Origin: Candidatus Gastranaerophilales bacterium
Lineage (GTDB): Bacteria > Cyanobacteriota > Vampirovibrionia > Gastranaerophilales > Gastranaerophilaceae
Direction: 5' to 3'
DNA length: 39,488 nucleotides
NCBI GenBank assembly: GCA_016280955.1
Contig: JAEEHV010000077.1
Location: 1-39,488 of the forward strand
Shown: positions 3,108 to 37,734 of the stretch, piece by piece
Layout: each line of letters begins with the position of its first letter
Position numbering within the stretch: position 1 is the first letter of the stretch
Notes under the pieces: model-generated
What the model was told of the DNA's origin: nothing
Databases searched by the model: none
Seen by the model: the letters and a program-made list of their open reading frames with translations, nothing else
Translations under genes and position numbers: made by a program

Positions 3108-4082
3108 ATGAGCGGTGGTCAAAGCATATCACCATTAGGAAATATCGGATTGGGCGGCAGCGGAATGTACAGCTCATATGATCCTGCGATGATGGCTATG
3201 ATGAGCGGATATAACAGCGGCGGATATGGTTCCTACGGTAATTACGGAATGGGAATGGGCATGATGGGTATGATGGGTATGCCTGATTCCGTTATTAATC
3301 AGCAAATGGAAATGATTAAAAAAATGTATGAAACTCAGCATCAGATTGAAACGCAAAGATTACAGCAGGCAACTGATATGCACGCATTAACTCAGCAGGC
3401 TGAAGTTTATAATCTGTCAGCTCACGATAATGCATTTTTCCAGAAAGCAATGTTAGACGGATATGTTCAAAAGGGCATAAGAGAAATCTACGATGCAATC
3501 AGAGAAGGAAACAGCAAATACGCATTACAAAAATTTTATCAGTTAAAGCAAGGTATTTTGGTAAACTACAGTGATTATTTTAATTCTGAGCAGGGACAGA
3601 AAAATACAAGAGAAAACTTAGACAGATTAATACAGCTTTTATATACAAAAATCGCAGGCGGATACGATCCGAAAAATCCTGCACCGGATATGATTAATGA
3701 CATTCAGCAATACAGTGAATCGCCGGTAAAACAAGGATTCAACATGGCATTCCTGGGCGAACACGGTCATAACGACATATATGGCGATCAGGTATTAAAT
3801 CAGATGTTCGGAAGACACATTAATGATGCCGGCAGCAAACACAGAGCACAACAGGTCGGAGCATTGGGCGCACATATTACGGAAGGTGCTTTGGCAACAG
3901 GTGTAGGTGCAGCAGGCGCTACAGCAGCCGGTGGTGTAGCTTACGGTCTTACTAAAGGAATAGCTGCTCTGTTCGGTCAAGCTAAAAGAGTTAAATTCAG
4001 CGGAAAAGTTGCAGGAGCAGTTGCCGGATTAGGAGCATTACTCGGACTTGGAGCTGATATCTGGTGGCAATTTACAAGATAA
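3108..4082 (+). CDS. Gly/Met-rich protein with two C-terminal hydrophobic segments, unknown function
   Basis: I do not recognise this 324-residue protein. Residues 1-58 are low complexity, rich in Gly, Met, Ser and Tyr (GMGMGMMGMMGMP at the end), and no signal peptide is seen. Residues 60-180 are mostly helical and Gln-rich, with possible coiled coil around 65-100. Residues 250-290 form a Gly/Ala-rich hydrophobic stretch, followed by a basic spacer (AKRVKFSGK) and a second one at 300-320. This layout (disordered start, helices, paired hydrophobic segments) loosely resembles pore-forming or translocator proteins, but that is only shape similarity. A strong ribosome binding site (AGGAGG) precedes the ATG. 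It stands alone between motif copy 2 and a terminator at 4115. Confidence 0.85.
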   Translation: MSGGQSISPLGNIGLGGSGMYSSYDPAMMAMMSGYNSGGYGSYGNYGMGMGMMGMMGMPDSVINQQMEMIKKMYETQHQIETQRLQQATDMHALTQQAEVYNLSAHDNAFFQKAMLDGYVQKGIREIYDAIREGNSKYALQKFYQLKQGILVNYSDYFNSEQGQKNTRENLDRLIQLLYTKIAGGYDPKNPAPDMINDIQQYSESPVKQGFNMAFLGEHGHNDIYGDQVLNQMFGRHINDAGSKHRAQQVGALGAHITEGALATGVGAAGATAAGGVAYGLTKGIAALFGQAKRVKFSGKVAGAVAGLGALLGLGADIWWQFTR

Positions 4083-13584: not shown

Positions 13585-15492
13585 GTGAAAAATCTATCAT
13601 TAATATATAAAAACTTAATAATTTCAGGATTGGTATTGTTTGCCCTTATAATACCATGCGTTTGTTGTTCTGCAGAAGAAAATGTTGAAGCTGAAAACGG
13701 TTTGGATTTTGCAGAAGAATCTACTTATGATGCAAATACAGCCTACATTAGCGATATTGAAATTTTAGGTGCTAATATTATAAAACCGGAATTCATTTTA
13801 TCCAAAATGTCATTAAAAAAAGGGGAACTTTATGACAAGGAAAAAATGCAGAAAGATTTAAAAACAATCTATAAACTCGGATTTTTCACTGAAAAAATGA
13901 AAGCCGTTCCTGTCAAAAATCCAAACGGTACTATTTCTCTAAAAATAATAGTAGAAGAAAACATCCCAATTACCGACTTCACAATAGAAGGAAATACCGT
14001 TGTTTCATCGGAAGAAATAATGCAATACCTTCTGCCCCTGAAAGGTAAACCGCAAAACATCGCTGCGATTAATCATGCAATGGAGCAGATTAACCAATGT
14101 TATTACAACAAAGGATATATCCTTTCAAAGATTGATTCAATTTATGATGATCCTGACGGAACACTAAACATAAGTATTAGCGAAGGAAAAATTAATTCCA
14201 TATCTATAACAGGAAATGAAAAAACAAAAGAATACGTTATAGAACGTAATATTATGACAGAACCCGGAACTGTTTACAACGAAAATCAAATGAAGCAGGA
14301 CCTGGTAAGATTATATTCCACACAGGCTTTCAAAGATGTAAACAGAACAATTGAAGCAACTCCTGATGATCCGGAAAAATATGATATTACAATTGAACTT
14401 AAAGAACAAAGAACCGCATCCGTTTCAGTCGGCGGCGGTTTGGATTCGGCAACCGGTGTTTTTGGTTCTCTCGCTATATCAGACAATAACTTCAGAGGAA
14501 GAAACCAAAGAATTTCGCTATCCGGCATGGTTGGTTCAGGTGTTCTTATGAGTGACTCCTCAATCCTCAATAAAATGAATTATCAGGCTGAAATCAGCTT
14601 TTTTGAACCGCATTTTCTGAATGCGGATAATTCTCTTATGAGTAAATTATACTTTAGAGATTTGGGCAGCTATCAGATACCGCTCGCAATGGAACGCAGA
14701 ATCGGTATAGAAGGAACTCTTGCTCACAGGCTTAAGATAAACAAAAGAATGTCCTCAACATTAACGGTCGGAGGCGAATATATTAATCTGAGCGAAGGTG
14801 ACTATGCAAGAATAGCAAGTTTATACAATTCTCACGGTTTAAGCATCGCAGACCGTGCCAAAGAACTTGAAGGAGGATACTTCCTTAAAATTGCACCGGG
14901 ATTATCTTATGATTCAAGAGATACAGTAATGAATCCAAGACACGGTGCATTAGCATCTATACGATATGAAGAAGCTTTCGGGCTGGACGGATTTAACAAA
15001 ACAAACGGCAGACTGTCAGGTATGGCGAAAAGATATTTCCCTGTAGCTAAGAAGTCATCTTTCACACTTACCGGAAGAGGCGGTTTGAAAATTCACGGTT
15101 CAAATATGCCTGAAGTTATGGCATATCGTTTAGGCGGACCATATACCATCAGAGGTTACAAGGTTAACGGTGTCGGTACAGGTACATCATTCATAATGGG
15201 TTCTGCAGAGCTGGCAACTCCAATACCATTCTCTGACAGACTGAAAATCAACTTCCTGCAAAATCTTAGAATTACATTCTGGGTTGACGCAGGTACAGTA
15301 TTTAACCCGACAATATCAAGTGCATTATATGACAGACCGTTGCATGCAATTACTGCCGGTGTCGGTTTGAAGATAAATATGCCGGGTGTAGGACCGTTAT
15401 CTATTGACTACGGTTTTCCGCTCACGAATCCGGGACCAAACGGAAACAGAAAAGGTTATTTTACGTTTGGTGTAGGAGATATGATGTACTAG
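13585..15492 (+). CDS. bamA: BamA/Omp85 outer-membrane protein assembly factor with three POTRA domains
   Basis: A 635-residue protein with an N-terminal signal peptide (about 1-30). Three POTRA repeats follow: about 50-125 (YISDIEILGANIIKPEFI), 126-200 (ITDFTIEGNTVVSSEEI) and 201-275 (INSISITGNEKTKEYVI). Residues 285-635 form the Omp85 barrel, with YDSRDTVMNPRHGA and the lid-loop motif IRGY in YRLGGPYTIRGYKVNG, and a final aromatic-ended strand. It inserts beta-barrel proteins in the outer membrane. Proteobacterial BamA has five POTRAs; three is typical of cyanobacterial Omp85. The start is GTG with GGAG nine bases upstream. The following gene encodes its usual partner, a Skp-like chaperone. 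Confidence 0.95.
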   Translation: MKNLSLIYKNLIISGLVLFALIIPCVCCSAEENVEAENGLDFAEESTYDANTAYISDIEILGANIIKPEFILSKMSLKKGELYDKEKMQKDLKTIYKLGFFTEKMKAVPVKNPNGTISLKIIVEENIPITDFTIEGNTVVSSEEIMQYLLPLKGKPQNIAAINHAMEQINQCYYNKGYILSKIDSIYDDPDGTLNISISEGKINSISITGNEKTKEYVIERNIMTEPGTVYNENQMKQDLVRLYSTQAFKDVNRTIEATPDDPEKYDITIELKEQRTASVSVGGGLDSATGVFGSLAISDNNFRGRNQRISLSGMVGSGVLMSDSSILNKMNYQAEISFFEPHFLNADNSLMSKLYFRDLGSYQIPLAMERRIGIEGTLAHRLKINKRMSSTLTVGGEYINLSEGDYARIASLYNSHGLSIADRAKELEGGYFLKIAPGLSYDSRDTVMNPRHGALASIRYEEAFGLDGFNKTNGRLSGMAKRYFPVAKKSSFTLTGRGGLKIHGSNMPEVMAYRLGGPYTIRGYKVNGVGTGTSFIMGSAELATPIPFSDRLKINFLQNLRITFWVDAGTVFNPTISSALYDRPLHAITAGVGLKINMPGVGPLSIDYGFPLTNPGPNGNRKGYFTFGVGDMMY

Positions 15493-15538: not shown

Positions 15539-15985
15539 ATGAAAGGAATTAAATTAGGTATTGCAACACTTGCAGTTATGTTAATAACAGGAATTGCAAA
15601 TGCCGGCGGTGTCGGATATATTGATTACGTTAAGGTAATTGATAACTATGACTATGCAAAACAAGCTACAAAGGAAGTTGACGCAAAAGGCTTAGAAATG
15701 CAGCAATTTCTTGTAGATAAAGAAAAAGAGTACAAATCTCTTGATACACCATTGAAGAAACAAACATTTGAAGAAAGAGTTTCTCAGGAATTCAAATCAA
15801 GAGAAGCTGCTTACATGGCTCTTAAAGAAAAAAAGGAAATGGAAGTATATAACAGAATAAAAGATGCTGCAAAAGCTGTTATGGTAGAACAAAAACTTGA
15901 TGCAATAATGGACTCAAGAGGAGTTTTTGTCGGCGGTGTTGATATTACACAAAGTGTAATAAGCAAGTTAAAAACTGTTAAATAA
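15539..15985 (+). CDS. OmpH/Skp-like periplasmic chaperone
   Basis: A 148-residue protein with signal peptide (cleavage after ANA near residue 22), the conserved start GGVGYIDYVKVID of the OmpH/Skp family, and a long charged coiled coil (about 40-125). Skp-type chaperones hold unfolded outer-membrane proteins in the periplasm for BamA, whose gene lies 46 bases upstream. AAAGGAG precedes the ATG. It is at the short end of the family. Confidence 0.9.
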   Translation: MKGIKLGIATLAVMLITGIANAGGVGYIDYVKVIDNYDYAKQATKEVDAKGLEMQQFLVDKEKEYKSLDTPLKKQTFEERVSQEFKSREAAYMALKEKKEMEVYNRIKDAAKAVMVEQKLDAIMDSRGVFVGGVDITQSVISKLKTVK

Positions 15986-16038: not shown

Positions 16039-17514
16039 ATGTATAACAAGAAAATGCAATACGTAATAAAATCCGTTCAAACAGATGATAAGCAAGGATT
16101 GGAAGATTTGCTGAATCAAATGTCAGATGAAGGATGGGATTTATATACAATGCACGAAGTTGAGACAGAATCTTCGTACGATTTCAATTGCATTTTCATG
16201 CGTCAAAAACAGGAAGAAGAAAAAACTGATTTGGACGACATTGTTAACATTACCAGCTTCAAGTACCGTATGGAAAAAATGCTTGCTGCACCTTCAAGTC
16301 CGTATGCTTCATGCAAAGAGATTCAGCTGAAAATTTCAAATCAAAAAGAACGGATTAAAAAAATTAAATCACAGCTTGAAAGTGATAATCTTTCTCCTGA
16401 CGATAAAAACCAGTTAAACATTCAGATGTCTGACGAATTAAAGCAGCTCGAAAATTTAAAACAAACTCTTGTTAATGAAATTTCTCCGGACACAATGTTT
16501 GCTACTATTAAAGAAGAAAAATTTGTTGTTAATTTATCCGAAGAAATACTTGAAGTAATATCAATGGAAGCTAACGATAATCTTTTGGCTGAAACAGTTA
16601 AAATAAGGCAAAAACTTGCAGATACTCTCGGATATGTTATTCCACACATCAATTTTCATAACAGTGACGAACTGAATCAAAATGAATTCAGCATAAAAAT
16701 TCACGATATTGAACTTTTCAGAACAGTAGTTTTCCCCGGATATGTCGCATATTATAAAGACGAACTGAAGGGATACAAAATCACTGATGATGATATTGTT
16801 TTAACAGATGAAATAACCGGCAAAAAACTTATATGGATTCCTCAGCAAAAAGTTAAAAATTTCTGGCTGCACGGAATGACTGCCGTTCAGTACATAGGTA
16901 AAGCAATAGAGACTCTTGCTGTTGAAGAAGTTTCAGATATTATGGATTATAATGACATCAACAAGTATGTTGAAAAGGTTATGGAAACAAATTCATTCCT
17001 TGTAGATAATATTCTTCCTGACTTTATAACGGCTGCCGATTTAAAATATCTGTTAACTTGTCTGATAAGAGAACACGTTTCGGTTAAGAATATAGTATAT
17101 ATTTTCGAAAAAATTAATGATTATGCAAATGAACCCACCAAAGAAGATTTGCTTGATAAAGTAAGACTTGCTCTTTCCAAGCATATTATAAAAGATTTGG
17201 CAGAAAACGGAGAACTTAAAGTTATTGAATTTTCTGATGAAATACTTGAAAGTGTATATTCTTTCTTCGGCGGAGATAATGATGAAGATGATTCAATCAT
17301 AAGAATAGAAGCCAAAGATGTCGAAGATATAGGTAATCGTCTTGTTAAGTTTGCAAAATCAAAGAAAATTACCAAGCCTGTTGTCGTAGTACCAATGGAT
17401 ATAAGACACATGATATTTGTAATTCTGAGCGAATTTGTTCCCGACTTAACAGTTCTCGCTCACGAAGAACTTGTATCGGAATGCGACATTAAATTTATCG
17501 GAAAGGTTGAATAA
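16039..17514 (+). CDS. Soluble protein: DUF4177-like domain, coiled coil, FlhA/SctV cytoplasmic-domain-like C-terminus
   Basis: A 491-residue protein with no membrane helix. Residues 5-56 resemble DUF4177 (QYVIKSV...LLNQMSDEGWDLYTMH). Residues 93-146 are a likely coiled coil. Residues about 165-491 follow, block by block, the cytoplasmic domain of the FlhA/SctV (FHIPEP) export-gate family: LADTLGYVIPHINFHN (LGYVIP block), NEFSIKIHDIEL, KLIWIPQQ (where the family has LPAVWI), LIREHVSVKNIVYIFEKI (LLREGVSIRDL block), GELKVIEF and FVPDLTVLAHEEL (LP-LxVLSxxEI block). In true export gates this domain docks chaperone-substrate complexes but is fused to eight membrane helices, which are absent here. 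It follows bamA and ompH, with GGGG before the ATG, after a weak hairpin at 15992-16013. Role unknown. The C-domain call is by eye but repeated over several blocks. Confidence 0.8.
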   Translation: MYNKKMQYVIKSVQTDDKQGLEDLLNQMSDEGWDLYTMHEVETESSYDFNCIFMRQKQEEEKTDLDDIVNITSFKYRMEKMLAAPSSPYASCKEIQLKISNQKERIKKIKSQLESDNLSPDDKNQLNIQMSDELKQLENLKQTLVNEISPDTMFATIKEEKFVVNLSEEILEVISMEANDNLLAETVKIRQKLADTLGYVIPHINFHNSDELNQNEFSIKIHDIELFRTVVFPGYVAYYKDELKGYKITDDDIVLTDEITGKKLIWIPQQKVKNFWLHGMTAVQYIGKAIETLAVEEVSDIMDYNDINKYVEKVMETNSFLVDNILPDFITAADLKYLLTCLIREHVSVKNIVYIFEKINDYANEPTKEDLLDKVRLALSKHIIKDLAENGELKVIEFSDEILESVYSFFGGDNDEDDSIIRIEAKDVEDIGNRLVKFAKSKKITKPVVVVPMDIRHMIFVILSEFVPDLTVLAHEELVSECDIKFIGKVE

Positions 17515-19632: not shown

Positions 19633-22338
19633 ATGGCAGTACAAAAAGCCGATAACACAAAGCGGACTGTTGTACCTAAAAAAACAACAGCAGTCAAAAA
19701 AGCACCGCATAAAAAATCAAAAGTAGAAATCAAATTTGCGACAAAGCCTGCGGAATCAAATAAGCCGCAAGCTGCTAAAGAATTAAGCATTGACTGCAAA
19801 AGTATTATTAACAGCATTACAGGTAAAGACAACTTAACCAAAGGGGTTGATTTAAATACTTATCCTGAAGTTTTGGTTAAAGATTTTAAGACTATGGTTA
19901 AAAAATCGCATCAGCATCTTTTGGGCTTAATTAAATTATACGAAGGCGATTCAGAGAATAATTATGAGGGGAAAGTCGGAAAAACATACAACGACAAGTA
20001 CGGCAAAAAGACAAAAGGTTTTGGGTGTACAAAAACACTTGTTAAAATGAACACACAAGAAGATGCTTATTTACAGTTGGAAAAAGATTTAAAAGAAGCT
20101 GCGGAAACTGCAAAAAATAAAATTAATAACAGGCTAGGAAAAGGAACATTTGAGAAACTTAAACTTTCAATAAAAGAAGCACTTATTGACTTGAGTTTTA
20201 ATAAAGGACCTGACAAAGTTGTAAAGCCTGAATTACTTAATGCAATAAAAAGAAATGATTATTCTGCCATTGTTGCAAATCTTTATTATGTCCATTCCGG
20301 AGAAAAGAAAAACGGTACGGAAGAAGATCCCGGATTATACAGAAGAAGCCTTAGCAGAATGATTCTTGCTACAAGAGATTTAACGGGAAAAGAAAAAACG
20401 GAAGCACAGGCTGAGATTGATAAATTTTACGAAAAAGCGAAAAGATGCTTTAAGAAAAATAATAAGCCCTCAACAGACCTTGATACAATTTATAATTATT
20501 ACAAAACCGGAAAATTTGAGGAAGTTAAACAAAACAATAACAGTAACAACAGTATAAAAATGACAATCGGCGATGTATTTAAAAGCAAGGGCGGATGGTC
20601 AATTGCAAGAGCCGCTTATCAGGCACAAGATACGAGCAAAATGTCATTCAAAGAATACTATGAACTATTCCTCAAAATTAACTCGAAAGACAATCTTGAT
20701 AATATAAGAGTTAATGGCGAGATAAACATTCCTGTTATTGATTCTAAAGGCACAGACAGCACAAAACTGATAGAAAACATTAACAAAATAGCAGAAAAAG
20801 ATTCTGTTAATAATAAAAAAACAGAAATAACCGAAACAGAAACAAAAACAGAAAACAAGGAATCGGGATTCTTAACACGCATCGGCCGCTGGTTCAAAAA
20901 CAAGTTGAAATCATTCGGCAGATGGGTAAAAGGTATTTTTACCCCGGATAAAGAAGCTTCCGGGATAGCCGGTTCAGAGGCTTTTCAAAAAGTAATAAAG
21001 GACGGTAATGCAAAAGAGATTGGTGAATTTACACTATACACTTTAGATTACACAGTCAAGAAAGGTGAAACCGTCTACGGAATATCAAAAGAATATGATA
21101 CGTCACAAGATTTGATAAAAGATGATAATAATTTAGAGGACATTGCTAAAATTAATGAAAATCAGGTTTTAAAAATCCAAAAACTCGGATATAAAATAAA
21201 AGACAAAGAAACTTTATCAAGCATTTCGCAAAAATTCGGTCTGACTTTAGAAATTCTAAAAGATATCAACGGAATTGAAGATGCTGACAGTGTAAAAGAA
21301 GGACAAACTTTAGAAATACCCGGCTTTAGTTATACGGTCAAACCGGGTGACACACTTACGCAAATTGCAAAAAAAGTAGGTGTTACAGTAAAACACCTCA
21401 GAGCCATTAACGGACTGGATACAGATATTATTCACCCCGGTGATCAAATAATTGTAATCTTCAATAACGCAGATTATGCTGTTCCTGACAGTCAGAAAAA
21501 AGTAACCGTAGATAAAGTAACAAAAACCGTAACAGAAACAATTGATATGACATCCCGTGTTAAAGGAATTAAAGGCAGACCGCTGCTGGCAACAAAACAA
21601 CGTGAAAACGGTAAAGTTGTTCCAACAAGAAAAGAATTTTCTTTAACTCCGGAACAAAAGAAAAAGGCAAAACACCCTCTGCCTCTGGACGGAAAAACGA
21701 TTATAGTAAACGCAGGGCACGGGTATTCTGAAGCACCCAATCCTGATGTAGGAGCATTGTCACTTGGTCGTGACGGAGTTGAGGACGAATGGATTTGCAA
21801 CCACGATAATGCATTAAAATTAAAAGATAAACTTGTCGCACAAGGTGCAAAAGTAATATATATACAAGGTGCTGTTAACGCAGCCGCTGCAGAAATAGAA
21901 AAAGCAAGAAATAAAGCAGACTTGTTTATATCTGTACATGTAAATGCTCACAAAGGAAATACACAAGACAGAACTCAAATATACTACACATCAAGCAAAC
22001 ACAGAGCAGGAACTTCTGTTAATAAAAAGAGCAAACAGCTTGCACAAATAATGGAAAAGAATTTTGATAACTGGATTCCTAAGCACGAAAAAATAAGTAA
22101 CGGTGATAAATTTGTATTTCAGGGAAAACAGGATTATGCTCAGACAAAATCCGAAGGGCTGCTTGTATGTAATACTGCAGAGGCAAAACATAATGCACCC
22201 AGTGTTCTTTGGGAAGTAGCATTTATGGGTTCTCATAAGGGAAGGTTGCGACTTAAAGATGAAAATCTTATGAATAACTACGCAAGCATTATGTCACAGT
22301 CCGTCGTCGAGTACTTTAAGCAGCAGAAAAAATCATAA
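19633..22338 (+). CDS. Leaderless lysozyme-like plus LysM plus N-acetylmuramoyl-L-alanine amidase
   Basis: A 901-residue multi-domain protein. Residues 1-50 are a Lys/Pro/Ala-rich tail, not a signal peptide. Residues about 85-260 look like a GH24/T4-type lysozyme (catalytic Glu104 in LYEGD, KTKGFGCT, then ALIDLSFNKGPDKV). About 305-368 is a LysM-like divergent repeat. Residues 411-438 form a cationic amphipathic helix rich in Trp, Phe, Arg and Lys. LysM repeats follow at about 468-515, 517-563 and 565-610. Residues 685-896 are an amidase_3 zinc amidase (His696 in NAGHG, Glu717 or Glu719, His769 in SVHVNA, Glu861 in LWEVAFM). It would cut both glycan strands and stem peptides. The ribosome binding site is weak. 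Motif copy 3 is its promoter candidate. The lack of a secretion signal is odd for a wall hydrolase. Confidence 0.88.
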   Translation: MAVQKADNTKRTVVPKKTTAVKKAPHKKSKVEIKFATKPAESNKPQAAKELSIDCKSIINSITGKDNLTKGVDLNTYPEVLVKDFKTMVKKSHQHLLGLIKLYEGDSENNYEGKVGKTYNDKYGKKTKGFGCTKTLVKMNTQEDAYLQLEKDLKEAAETAKNKINNRLGKGTFEKLKLSIKEALIDLSFNKGPDKVVKPELLNAIKRNDYSAIVANLYYVHSGEKKNGTEEDPGLYRRSLSRMILATRDLTGKEKTEAQAEIDKFYEKAKRCFKKNNKPSTDLDTIYNYYKTGKFEEVKQNNNSNNSIKMTIGDVFKSKGGWSIARAAYQAQDTSKMSFKEYYELFLKINSKDNLDNIRVNGEINIPVIDSKGTDSTKLIENINKIAEKDSVNNKKTEITETETKTENKESGFLTRIGRWFKNKLKSFGRWVKGIFTPDKEASGIAGSEAFQKVIKDGNAKEIGEFTLYTLDYTVKKGETVYGISKEYDTSQDLIKDDNNLEDIAKINENQVLKIQKLGYKIKDKETLSSISQKFGLTLEILKDINGIEDADSVKEGQTLEIPGFSYTVKPGDTLTQIAKKVGVTVKHLRAINGLDTDIIHPGDQIIVIFNNADYAVPDSQKKVTVDKVTKTVTETIDMTSRVKGIKGRPLLATKQRENGKVVPTRKEFSLTPEQKKKAKHPLPLDGKTIIVNAGHGYSEAPNPDVGALSLGRDGVEDEWICNHDNALKLKDKLVAQGAKVIYIQGAVNAAAAEIEKARNKADLFISVHVNAHKGNTQDRTQIYYTSSKHRAGTSVNKKSKQLAQIMEKNFDNWIPKHEKISNGDKFVFQGKQDYAQTKSEGLLVCNTAEAKHNAPSVLWEVAFMGSHKGRLRLKDENLMNNYASIMSQSVVEYFKQQKKS

Positions 22339-27353: not shown

Positions 27354-30300
27354 TTATTTTCTGTATATTTCTTCAACGGTTACGTGTTCTGCTTCCGGAT
27401 GACTTTGTCTAAAATCCCAGTTTTGTTGGGTATTTTGTCTTTGAACTTTGTCACCGTTTACCTTTGCGTAGTAGTTTGTAGTTCTGCCTGCAACACCTCT
27501 GTCACCTGCTCTGCCGCCACCGTCAGCTTTTACGTATTTCGGATCTTTGTTGCGTTCGCATGTTGTTTCATTGTTGTAGTAAAGAACTTTTGGTGCTATC
27601 AATCTGTTGTTTTTATCACCGGGTACCGGTTCTGCAACAGCATTTACAAACTGTTCATATTTGAAGTTATAATTTTGAAGGAAATCAACTCCGCTGAATA
27701 ATTCTCTGATTTGTCTTTCGTAATCAGCTTTATCCGGAACTCTGTGTCCACGAACGGTTTTATATCTTAAATGTGCTTTTTGTGACAATTCAGCGAGTGT
27801 TGTAATTTGTTCTATTGTAAGAGCTGTTTCGTCCATACCCTGCATTACTTTAAACATTCTGATTGATTTATTTATATCATTTTGAGGGAAGCAGTCATAT
27901 ACTTTGATTAATTCCTTCCAAGTATATTTATTTGCTTTTTCAATGTATAAATCATCTTCTTCTGCCCAGTATGCAGGTTTTGCTTGAACCGGCTGTTGCG
28001 GTGCAGGTTGTACCGGTTGTACTACAGGTTCTACAGTCGGATTCGGTTGTTGAACCTGTTGCTGCGGTGCGGGTTGTTCCGGTGCTTTGTTTTTGTATTT
28101 TGTAATATCAACACCATAGTATTGGAATGCTCTGCATTCTTCAGGATTCAACTTAGAACCGTAACCTGCTGCTTCTCTTACCAAGTCGTTGAATATTTCG
28201 TGCCATTCATATCCTGATGATTCGGAGATTCTTGCACAAGCATCAGCTAATGATTTCATTGCTTCAGCTTTTTGAGGATTATGACCGAATCTTCTGTCAA
28301 CATATTCTTTGTATTTATCAATATTTGTGTACAGACTTTCAGTTATTGCATAATCTGAAACTGATATGCAGGATTTTTCATTTTTATTTTCACCGAATGC
28401 TAATGATACTAATGCAGGCAGAGCCGCAATTGCAACTGAGAATATTATGTTATGTAATGCATTGTCAGCATATTGTATACCTCTTTTAGCATTTTCTGTT
28501 GTATTATCATATTCGTTGTACATAATTAACAACTGCATATCGCTCTGGAATTTGCCGCTTAACACGTCTTGTGCAGTGTATTGCTGCATTTTTTGACCTG
28601 CTTCAGCAAGTGCTTTAATATCAATTCCGAATGCTTCCTTAATCCAATCGAGTTGTTGATCTCTTGTCATTTCTGCAAAGTGAGCCTGGAATGCATCAGG
28701 ATCGTTTGCTATTTGACTTATTACTTCATTTTCAAGTAAATCGTATGTTGTATCACTTACCTGTAATGACAATAACAAGTTGCTGCCCTGGTTACCGATT
28801 GCTTTTGTTGCAGCATTCATACCTGTGATTACTGCATTTGCAAAAGCACCCAATCCAAGCGGTAAACCTAATGCCAAATTCTTCAGGAAGTCACCTAATG
28901 AACGGCTTCTGTGTTCAATTGCGATGCAGCAAAGTTTACAAATTCTTTTTACTTCATTATCTGAGAAGGTTTTTCCGGGACATTTTCTTTGAAGAACCTG
29001 TCTTACGTTTTCAACTTCTGCCATTTGAATGTCATCATCATTTCTGCTCAACATATAGTCGAAACCTACTCTTGATACAACATCTTTAACTAACTGGTCA
29101 AAATCATAAGTGTTATCAGATTTTTCTAAGTTGTACGGATCGTTTTTATCATCACCGTTTTTGCCGTAAGTGTCATCTAATTTGCCTGTAAGTTTTTTAC
29201 CACCGCCGACATTAATTTTAAATAAACCTAAATTAAGTCGTTTATCCAATTCATTTACAACATCTTCGTAACTCATATCACTGAATTCACCATCTTCAAG
29301 TTTAGATGCAACTGTTGCAGTTCTTGCAAGAATTTTTCTGTCAGTTTTTAAATCCTGAATTGCATCTCTGAAAATGCCGTCTTCAGATAAAGCTCTGAGT
29401 TCTCTTCTGAAATCTTTCTTTGTAATTTTTTGATTTTCTTCGCGTCCGTCAACAAGTTTTTGGTAAACATCACCGGTTTGAGGATGCATTAATTTTGAAC
29501 AAAGTTCTCTTGCATGCTGTTTTGCGTATTGTTTCAACTTTTTAAATGCAGCTTTTGTATCAGCATCTTTATATTCTTTGGTTTCTTTTAATCTTGCTTT
29601 CATTCCGTCTAAAATGCCTTCGTATTCCGGAATTGTCTTGTTTTTAAGATTATCTTCAACTGAACCTGCTAATTTATCAAATGCTTCTTTAAGCGGAGTA
29701 AACTTAGCATCAACTCTTGATGTTTGAGCTGCATCTTCCATTCCTCTCTGGATTTTCTTAATGAAACTCTTTTGAGTATCGCTCAATTCAGACATAATTT
29801 CTTTTTTTGCTTCATAGTGAGCTTTATTATACCATTTTGAAGCAAATGTATATTTTCTTTTAACATTGAAGCCGAAAAGTGAATACTGGTGATCTGCACC
29901 GCTCTTTTCAACAACGTCATAGATTTTTTCGATATCTCTGAAAATTTCTTCATATTGAGGTTTTAAAACAGGTCTTTTTTTGCCGTCTACCATTTCGGTA
30001 ACAAAAACTGTTTCACCTTCCTCATTTGTTTCAGTCTGAACAAAAGTTCCGTCGTGATAAAGTCCGTTCATAATTCCATCAAAATCTTTTCCTTGATATG
30101 CAAGTCGAAGCACAGCTTTTGCAACTCTGTCTTCAAGTTCATCTTTCTGTGCTCTTGTCATAGGAACTTTTGTTCCGGTAACTACCTGGTCTTTTGCTTT
30201 AGTTTTTGATTTTTTATCACTGCTGAAATCGCCACCCATAAGCTGAGCAACAGTTTCATCACTCTTGGCAACTTCTGTTTTAAATAATTCTATATCTTTA

Positions 30301-30461
30301 GCATTAATTCCAAACAATTGTCCCTGCTGTTCAAATAACTCAATCTCCTTTGCTGAATTTAATATTTTTCCGTCATTATCTGTTGAAGCACCGGTCTTAA
30401 TGTTTTTATCGACCATTTGTGCTATTTCAGCTAACTTTTGATTCAATGTCGGTTCTCCCAT
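27354..30461 (-). CDS. 1035-residue unknown protein with two hydrophobic helices, Pro/Gln linker, no signal peptide
   Basis: I do not recognise this large protein. The N-terminus (MGEPTLNQKLAEIAQMV) is not a signal sequence. Residues 1-520 are mostly charged helices. There are hydrophobic segments at about 527-548 (LALGLPLGLGAFANAVITGM) and 671-690, a Pro/Gln-rich linker at 793-830 and a C-terminal domain (835-1035) ending in a Gly/Arg-rich stretch and a short helix. The two hydrophobic helices and lack of a leader recall translocator or toxin-like proteins, but no catalytic motif is visible. AAAAGGAG precedes the ATG. It is expressed from motif copy 4, alone, and ends at a terminator at 27301. 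Confidence 0.85.
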   Translation of the reverse strand: MGEPTLNQKLAEIAQMVDKNIKTGASTDNDGKILNSAKEIELFEQQGQLFGINAKDIELFKTEVAKSDETVAQLMGGDFSSDKKSKTKAKDQVVTGTKVPMTRAQKDELEDRVAKAVLRLAYQGKDFDGIMNGLYHDGTFVQTETNEEGETVFVTEMVDGKKRPVLKPQYEEIFRDIEKIYDVVEKSGADHQYSLFGFNVKRKYTFASKWYNKAHYEAKKEIMSELSDTQKSFIKKIQRGMEDAAQTSRVDAKFTPLKEAFDKLAGSVEDNLKNKTIPEYEGILDGMKARLKETKEYKDADTKAAFKKLKQYAKQHARELCSKLMHPQTGDVYQKLVDGREENQKITKKDFRRELRALSEDGIFRDAIQDLKTDRKILARTATVASKLEDGEFSDMSYEDVVNELDKRLNLGLFKINVGGGKKLTGKLDDTYGKNGDDKNDPYNLEKSDNTYDFDQLVKDVVSRVGFDYMLSRNDDDIQMAEVENVRQVLQRKCPGKTFSDNEVKRICKLCCIAIEHRSRSLGDFLKNLALGLPLGLGAFANAVITGMNAATKAIGNQGSNLLLSLQVSDTTYDLLENEVISQIANDPDAFQAHFAEMTRDQQLDWIKEAFGIDIKALAEAGQKMQQYTAQDVLSGKFQSDMQLLIMYNEYDNTTENAKRGIQYADNALHNIIFSVAIAALPALVSLAFGENKNEKSCISVSDYAITESLYTNIDKYKEYVDRRFGHNPQKAEAMKSLADACARISESSGYEWHEIFNDLVREAAGYGSKLNPEECRAFQYYGVDITKYKNKAPEQPAPQQQVQQPNPTVEPVVQPVQPAPQQPVQAKPAYWAEEDDLYIEKANKYTWKELIKVYDCFPQNDINKSIRMFKVMQGMDETALTIEQITTLAELSQKAHLRYKTVRGHRVPDKADYERQIRELFSGVDFLQNYNFKYEQFVNAVAEPVPGDKNNRLIAPKVLYYNNETTCERNKDPKYVKADGGGRAGDRGVAGRTTNYYAKVNGDKVQRQNTQQNWDFRQSHPEAEHVTVEEIYRK

Positions 30462-36924: not shown

Positions 36925-37734
36925 ATGACAGAGTATTCAATCAAATTGCCGCAAGGGAATAATGTAAAGACACCACAATTGGCTGACGAAACAGCAAGAA
37001 TCCACGGAGATATGAAGCTTGCATTATCAGCTTTTGATGTTGACGGACAAAAGGGGCTGAGTGCCAATGAACTGCTTCAGGCATTTGACTATTTTGTAAA
37101 TAAAGAAAAGGAAATTGCCGTTACAGGGAAAAAAGGCGATGGTATAATTACCAGTCAGGACATTGGAGAAATTATCAAAACCGACGATAAATTTGCAGCA
37201 ATAAGAGACAGTCTAAAAGACGATAATAAAGTTGTAGAGTTATTATCAAATATTGTAATGACACTTTCAGCTTTAGTACAAAAAAATAAAGATAACAATA
37301 ATGCTGTATTTATTAATTCAAAAACAATAGAATATACTACCGATAACGGACGTGTTATACGAGAATCCGATAAAATGGTTACAAATAGAAGAAGTACAAT
37401 TAAAGAAGTAGAAATAAACGGTAAAAAACATAAAGTTCAAATTTGCACTAATGAAAAAGGTGAAGAATATGTATTATCCGCAAACGGAGAATACAGATAT
37501 ACAACACCTTCTTTTGTGGCAAAATGTCTGGGTTATGAAACTGAATCTCATTGGTTTAAAGATGACGAATATTATGCACCTATCTCACAAGATGTCCGGG
37601 TTCCGGTCGAAGACAGCGAACACAGTGCTGCTATGTTAGGGAAACAATACAAAGTCTGGAATCCTGAAACAAACAGCTTTAATAACGGAAAACGAGAATT
37701 TAATCAAATGAGACACTTTATCGGCACCAAATAA
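36925..37734 (+). CDS. EF-hand-like unknown protein
   Basis: A 269-residue protein without signal peptide. Residues 38-49 (DVDGQKGLSANE) and 68-79 (ending GDGIITSQD) look like two calcium-binding loops: acidic position 1 and glutamate at 12 in the first, G-D-G and aspartate at 12 in the second. Both are imperfect at some canonical positions, so calcium binding is likely but not certain. The rest (about 125-269) is not recognised. AAAGGAG precedes the ATG. Expressed from motif copy 5, terminated at 37785. Confidence 0.8.
   Translation: MTEYSIKLPQGNNVKTPQLADETARIHGDMKLALSAFDVDGQKGLSANELLQAFDYFVNKEKEIAVTGKKGDGIITSQDIGEIIKTDDKFAAIRDSLKDDNKVVELLSNIVMTLSALVQKNKDNNNAVFINSKTIEYTTDNGRVIRESDKMVTNRRSTIKEVEINGKKHKVQICTNEKGEEYVLSANGEYRYTTPSFVAKCLGYETESHWFKDDEYYAPISQDVRVPVEDSEHSAAMLGKQYKVWNPETNSFNNGKREFNQMRHFIGTK

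Follow-up and report, generated by a model that had tools for sequence, protein, structure and literature searches.

A soluble FlhA cytoplasmic-domain paralogue conserved throughout the Gastranaerophilales and its likely link to a second flagellar-type export system

Each export machine is usually regarded as containing a single membrane protein of the FlhA/SctV type, whose cytoplasmic ring serves as the docking platform. FlhX of Campylobacterota, in turn, is a soluble paralogue of the C-terminal part of the export-gate protein FlhB. For FlhA, the cleft between subdomains D1 and D2 has been described as the chaperone dock, and in SctV, conservation is found on the charged surface of D3/D4 as well as at the ring interface (PMC5932034). 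Furthermore, a GYXLI motif has been described for the cytoplasmic domain of FlhA, FlhA-C (PMC9431611). As for the Gastranaerophilales ("Melainabacteria"), an order of gut and groundwater bacteria, our literature search on FlhA retrieved only the genome paper by Di Rienzi et al. (2013), in which the flagellar genes of gut Melainabacteria, a set lacking the filament, were interpreted as ongoing genome reduction (PMC3787301); the search revealed no account of a role for the protein studied here.

The gene in question spans positions 16039-17514 on the forward strand (ATG start, stop codon counted) of the window, i.e., the whole stretch of 39,488 nucleotides from a Candidatus Gastranaerophilales bacterium that was analyzed. 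Its 491-residue product is, with near certainty, a soluble FlhA-C paralogue, in which the membrane part of FlhA is replaced by a small β-α-β-β domain and a coiled coil. All parts lie on the forward strand: the highly conserved, DUF4177-like N-terminal domain comprises residues 6-56 (positions 16054-16206, delimited by the secondary structure elements of an AlphaFold2 model), the coiled-coil region residues 88-148 (16300-16482, with predicted helices at 88-113 and 120-148), and a complete FlhA/SctV cytoplasmic domain, D1 to D4, approximately residues 142-491 (16462-17511, delimited by Pfam, Foldseek, and VIA-align). The ordered sequence blocks of FlhA-C/SctV-C that the initial annotation had listed (LGYVIP, NEFSIKIHDIEL, LIREHVSVKNI, and FVPDLTVLAHEEL) are all found in the translation. 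The profile search recommended there places the protein in the FHIPEP domain family (PF00771) with 156.2 bits (E = 1.6e-45) against a curated cut-off of 29.1 bits, and the match is confined to the cytoplasmic part (profile positions 321-655 of 657), leaving positions 1-320 unmatched. The scores of the NCBIfam equivalogs TIGR01398 (FlhA, 135.9 bits) and TIGR01399 (SctV, 86.3 bits) are both below the respective full-length cut-offs of 772 and 692 bits. Moreover, a search for a membrane domain yielded 2 hydrophobic 19-residue windows (maximum 1.61) compared to 71 (maximum 3.04) in the same scan of a full-length paralogue, which bears out the proposed absence of membrane helices; the N-terminal membrane domain of FlhA/SctV export gates, with the FHIPEP loop, is lacking from the protein.

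The AlphaFold2 model, for which 37 sequences were used as input (mean pLDDT 78, pTM 0.63), predicts the four-subdomain cytoplasmic fold of FlhA/SctV export gates, as anticipated. Foldseek comparisons with FlhA-C crystal structures resulted in target-normalized TM scores of 0.82-0.85, and VIA-align superimposed the model on 6ch2 with a Z score of 29.4 (rmsd 3.0, 323 residues). For FlhA-C structures generally, the Z score is about 29 across approximately 325-340 residues, and therefore all four subdomains are covered. The same fold is found for SctV-type cytoplasmic domains, with Z scores of 22-28.

The N-terminal domain is predicted to consist of strands at residues 6-14, 34-42, and 47-56 and a helix at 18-30, with pLDDT values of mostly about 90 in this block. 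Its resemblance to DUF4177 (PF13783), as judged from sequence, is real though weak: the window protein scores 13.5 bits and thus falls outside the family at its curated cut-off of 25 bits, while the profile is matched by 8 of 24 orthologues (best E = 3e-4). A similar length and an LLN..GW pattern are common to both, but even the orthologue consensus reaches 21.6 (E = 2.7e-4) of the 25 bits needed. In the 8 genomes of the order that were searched, this domain is present in one copy per genome and only in the soluble paralogue, where its conservation equals or exceeds that of the remaining protein. A search for relatives in the PDB returned mainly coiled-coil matches and no convincing sequence or fold match to the domain.

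When 117 genomes from across the Gastranaerophilales were sampled, orthologues with the same two-part architecture were identified in 116 of them; within the window's genus, they are present in 37 of 38 genomes, with one copy cut by a contig end. The genomes without an orthologue, G065 and G012, are both only about 80% complete. Outside the order, samples of the class and phylum contained full-length FlhA or fragments thereof, whereas neither the two-part architecture nor any protein bearing the N-terminal domain was found. The records of the closest relatives are mostly labeled Candidatus Gastranaerophilales, Melainabacteria, or uncultured metagenome-assembled genomes and originate largely from rumen and gut. 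Since the same two-part protein is carried by 116 of 117 genomes, a frame or assembly artifact was rejected. The protein is under purifying selection: dN/dS between close orthologues is about 0.02-0.05, although dS is saturated for most pairs, and the sole unsaturated pair gives 0.053. The low dN/dS, together with 2 intact full-length flhA genes elsewhere in the genome and a conserved upstream domain unlike that of FlhA, also led us to reject a remnant of a decayed full-length flhA. Profile, predicted fold, and order-wide conservation support the initial annotation as a soluble FlhA/SctV cytoplasmic-domain homologue with a DUF4177-like domain.

The 2 full-length genes, whose presence the initial annotation had suggested looking for, are accompanied in the window's genome by a fourth, short soluble FlhA-type gene. 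One of them (L001) encodes the canonical FlhA, which is 54-88% identical to FlhA of other flagellated relatives within the class. The other (L002) is located in an operon of the order fliE-fliF-fliG-like-fliH-flhA, and its product is referred to here as second-system FlhA, as a second flagellar-type export apparatus is encoded in all examined Gastranaerophilales. Flagellin is absent in 17 of the 38 examined genomes of the order, and these 17 genomes retain both second-system FlhA and the soluble paralogue. The latter is therefore not dependent on the motility flagellum, and a function solely as part of it was rejected. FliP is present in one copy in the 17 flagellin-less genomes and in G131, which encodes a single flagellin, and in 2 copies in the others; likewise, rod-domain matches number 2-4 in the former and 5-9 in most flagellated genomes. 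The second system is largely complete in the flagellin-less genome G055 (5 contigs, 99% complete; loci L158, L218, L219, and L227), with FliI taken from a related genome, G044, in which it follows flhA. Besides the fliE-fliF-fliG-like-fliH-flhA operon, G055 encodes a FliMN_C protein, FliO, FliP, FliQ, and FliR; three proteins assigned by eye, namely FlhB, a FliJ-like one, and a short one resembling FlgE; and FlgB, FlgC, and 2 FlgF/G-like rod proteins. The FliG position of the operon is occupied by a conserved protein of 320-350 residues (L158:9294-10316, with homologues at L073:8992-10044 and L076:12372-13331), for which the one copy scanned, L158, gave no Pfam match. Because the gene set previously interpreted as genome reduction is found order-wide, beside or without a complete flagellum, its gene content suggests a second, maintained system.

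Phylogenetic analysis revealed that the soluble clade is monophyletic (support 100/100) and joins second-system FlhA (100/98), but the AU test did not reject two other placements, one next to canonical FlhA (p = 0.335) and one next to the single FlhA found in other orders (p = 0.327). Second-system FlhA is also the best-scoring full-length relative, at approximately 24% identity, and its linker aligns with the C-terminal part of residues 88-148, the alignment with this FlhA type reaching to residue ~126. The tree support, the common linker residues, and the higher pairwise scores thus favor a putative origin from second-system FlhA.

Additional proteins containing FlhA-C-derived sequences were observed. 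Soluble ones of 213-285 residues without the C-terminal part are encoded in several genomes of the genus (L004, L214, L215, L216, and L217), among them a 214-residue protein from the window's own genome (L004:1471-2115; G000:C81) and one of 285 residues (L217). Sporadically, second gate-like proteins occur in which a FliG-like N-terminal domain of the second system is combined with 2 or more hydrophobic segments and FlhA-C (L196:222-2306, G119:C1; L166:7374-9149, G111:C6). A 995-residue fusion (L167:7697-10684, G011:C17) comprises the same type of FliG-like N-terminal domain of the second system (30% identity), hydrophobic segments, FlhA-C, and a FliI-like ATPase part (35% identity). The Walker A lysine is missing from the latter (GSGVGKS vs QGCGLS), and the fusion as a whole suggests an export assembly built as a single chain, probably without ATPase activity. 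That FlhA-C is repeatedly combined with second-system parts provides indirect support for the notion that the FlhA-C domain stays within export in Gastranaerophilales.

Conserved residues were compared in Salmonella FlhA numbering across three clades, with 24 soluble-clade and 18 second-system FlhA sequences. The positions R391, G399, P403, W465, L544, E547, D553, E559, R579, I586, R655, and E676 are kept in the soluble clade, most of them being invariant across the three clades; this includes the charged D3/D4 residues common to all FlhA (E547, D553, E559, R579, R655, and E676). With respect to a nonameric ring as known for FlhA-C, the sequences thus show the core residues to be conserved. 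Within the D1/D2 cleft, Asp456 is likewise kept in 22 of 24 soluble-clade sequences. However, the position of F459 is aromatic in none of the 24 (T, S, or N instead) compared to Y or F in 18/18 second-system FlhA sequences, L461 is replaced by charged or polar residues (K, R, E, or Q), and T490 is not conserved, so that the set of dock residues is incomplete. The GYXLI motif is lost as well, with G changed to S in 23 of 24 sequences and the position of R370 being E in all 24. The altered cleft and the lost motif indicate that the soluble paralogue does not simply duplicate the dock for FliS/FliT. The earlier idea of a free chaperone-docking platform is thus supported only in part, namely with regard to the fold, the D3/D4 core, and Asp456, but not for F459, L461, T490, and GYXLI.

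In line with the initial annotation, no other flagellar or type III gene was found among the remaining open reading frames of the window, which were read or scanned. These include a 901-residue protein (19633-22338, forward strand) with a phage-lysozyme-like domain, three LysM domains, and Amidase_3, as well as frames of 1035, 324, and 269 residues (27354-30461 on the reverse strand; 3108-4082 and 36925-37734 on the forward strand) without a Pfam match, the last being EF-hand-like by eye. Directly upstream of the soluble paralogue gene are homologues of bamA (13585-15492, forward; Omp85 with POTRA, Pfam Omp85 148 bits) and skp/ompH (15539-15985, forward; Pfam OmpH 51 bits). The conservation of this gene order, another point the initial annotation had raised for checking, is confirmed within the genus, where bamA-skp is found directly or one gene upstream at 49/49 testable loci, and partly beyond it (29/46 other loci), but it breaks down in other families of the order (0/7 testable loci). 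Where checked, the intervening gene encodes one of two unrelated nucleoside phosphorylases.

In most genomes, the soluble paralogue gene is not adjacent to any flagellar gene, and its neighbors are mostly housekeeping genes. In G044 and G050, which belong to one genus of another family, it is located 147 bp upstream of fliJ (64.5 bits)-fliK-flgD-flgE. A distance of about 5-9 kb to a fliM/N-O-P-Q-R cluster in G051, G084, and G143 could be due to chance, considering how many such loci a genome contains; the adjacency to fliJ is the stronger link.

Considering what was computed, namely homology, predicted fold, the missing membrane part, conservation, selection, co-occurrence, and the fliJ-fliK-flgD-flgE neighbors in one genus, the soluble paralogue is likely linked to the second export system, although co-occurrence itself cannot discriminate, since both partners occur throughout the order. 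As other orders of the Vampirovibrionia possess second-system FlhA without the soluble paralogue, the latter is at most a lineage-specific accessory and not a core component. The reading that we favor, at about even odds, is that the paralogue acts as an accessory unit of the filament-less system, with a role in docking or in regulation/switching. For such a unit, we infer physical interaction, ring formation, and client recruitment: via its D3/D4 core and linker-like segment, the paralogue would assemble with the second-system FlhA-C ring or form its own adjacent ring, where it would meet the FliJ/FliH-FliI side of the apparatus, and the N-terminal domain and the remodeled cleft may recruit or order clients other than FliS/FliT chaperones.

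Alternatively, the paralogue could enter the second-system FlhA ring itself as a co-subunit or spare part, altering the makeup of this ring or capping it, instead of serving as a cytosolic receptor of its own. The linker-like segment and D3/D4 core in common with second-system FlhA and the neighboring tree position are consistent with this, and FlhX may be a comparable case, but an identity of only about 24%, the long stem of the clade, and the loss of GYXLI render it unlikely. Recruitment of the domain out of type III export, as a cytosolic scaffold or regulator in which the FlhA-C fold would serve solely as a surface for protein binding, is doubtful too. The soluble paralogue evolves faster than second-system FlhA and may therefore have moved to another job, and the degenerate cleft, the mostly housekeeping neighbors, and the strongly conserved N-terminal domain point in the same direction; nevertheless, FlhA core residues are retained, the fliJ-fliK-flgD-flgE link exists in one genus, and the paralogue was not seen without the second system. 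A soluble decoy or timer that restrains the second system by titrating FliJ or chaperones in the cytosol would agree with a cytosolic single-copy FlhA-C and the kept Asp456 but is quite improbable given the lost aromatic and Thr residues of the cleft. Finally, the recruitment to outer-membrane biogenesis that had been read from the neighboring genes is rejected, a partnership with BamA/Skp being hardly credible despite the conserved order within the genus, since this order is restricted to part of one family, unrelated phosphorylase genes intervene, flagellar genes are the neighbors in another family, and the paralogue has neither an export signal nor a membrane part, whereas the periplasm is the site of action of Skp and of the POTRA domains of BamA.

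Returning to an accessory unit of the second system, we tentatively propose, as a possibility that is itself rather doubtful, that the "reduced flagellum" of the order is not decaying but represents a dedicated filament-less exporter, whose own soluble docking ring replaces FliS/FliT-type docking and recruits lineage-specific substrates via the N-terminal domain. With a membrane-free, selected, order-wide copy that has a remodeled cleft, nature would have uncoupled the docking ring from the proton channel, which provides a testable handle on what the docking ring does alone. For common gut Melainabacteria, the filament-less flagellar gene set suggests a secretion system that has been retained and has accessory parts of its own.

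Compared to known systems, the soluble paralogue resembles FlhA-C (PDB 6ch1, 6ch2, 3a5i, and 7amy) in the predicted D1-D4 fold, the G/P positions of D1, W465, and the D3/D4 charges, but it lacks the membrane domain, adds the DUF4177-like domain and coiled coil, and has not kept the F459/L461/T490 cleft and the GYXLI motif. With SctV (YscV, CdsV, MxiA, and SsaV), it has the cytoplasmic fold and the conserved charged D3/D4 surface described there (PMC5932034) in common; however, the SctV model scores it with 86 bits compared to 136 for the FlhA model, and the Gastranaerophilales system features flagellar rod, FliE, and FlgB/C proteins instead of an injectisome. Second-system FlhA contains the same linker motif and is its neighbor in the tree, but is a full membrane protein that is 78-96% identical across the order and keeps Y/F at position 459 as well as the G of GYXLI. 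Lastly, while FlhX derives from FlhB rather than FlhA and has no added N-terminal domain, both proteins represent an additional, free copy of the cytoplasmic part of a protein of the export gate.
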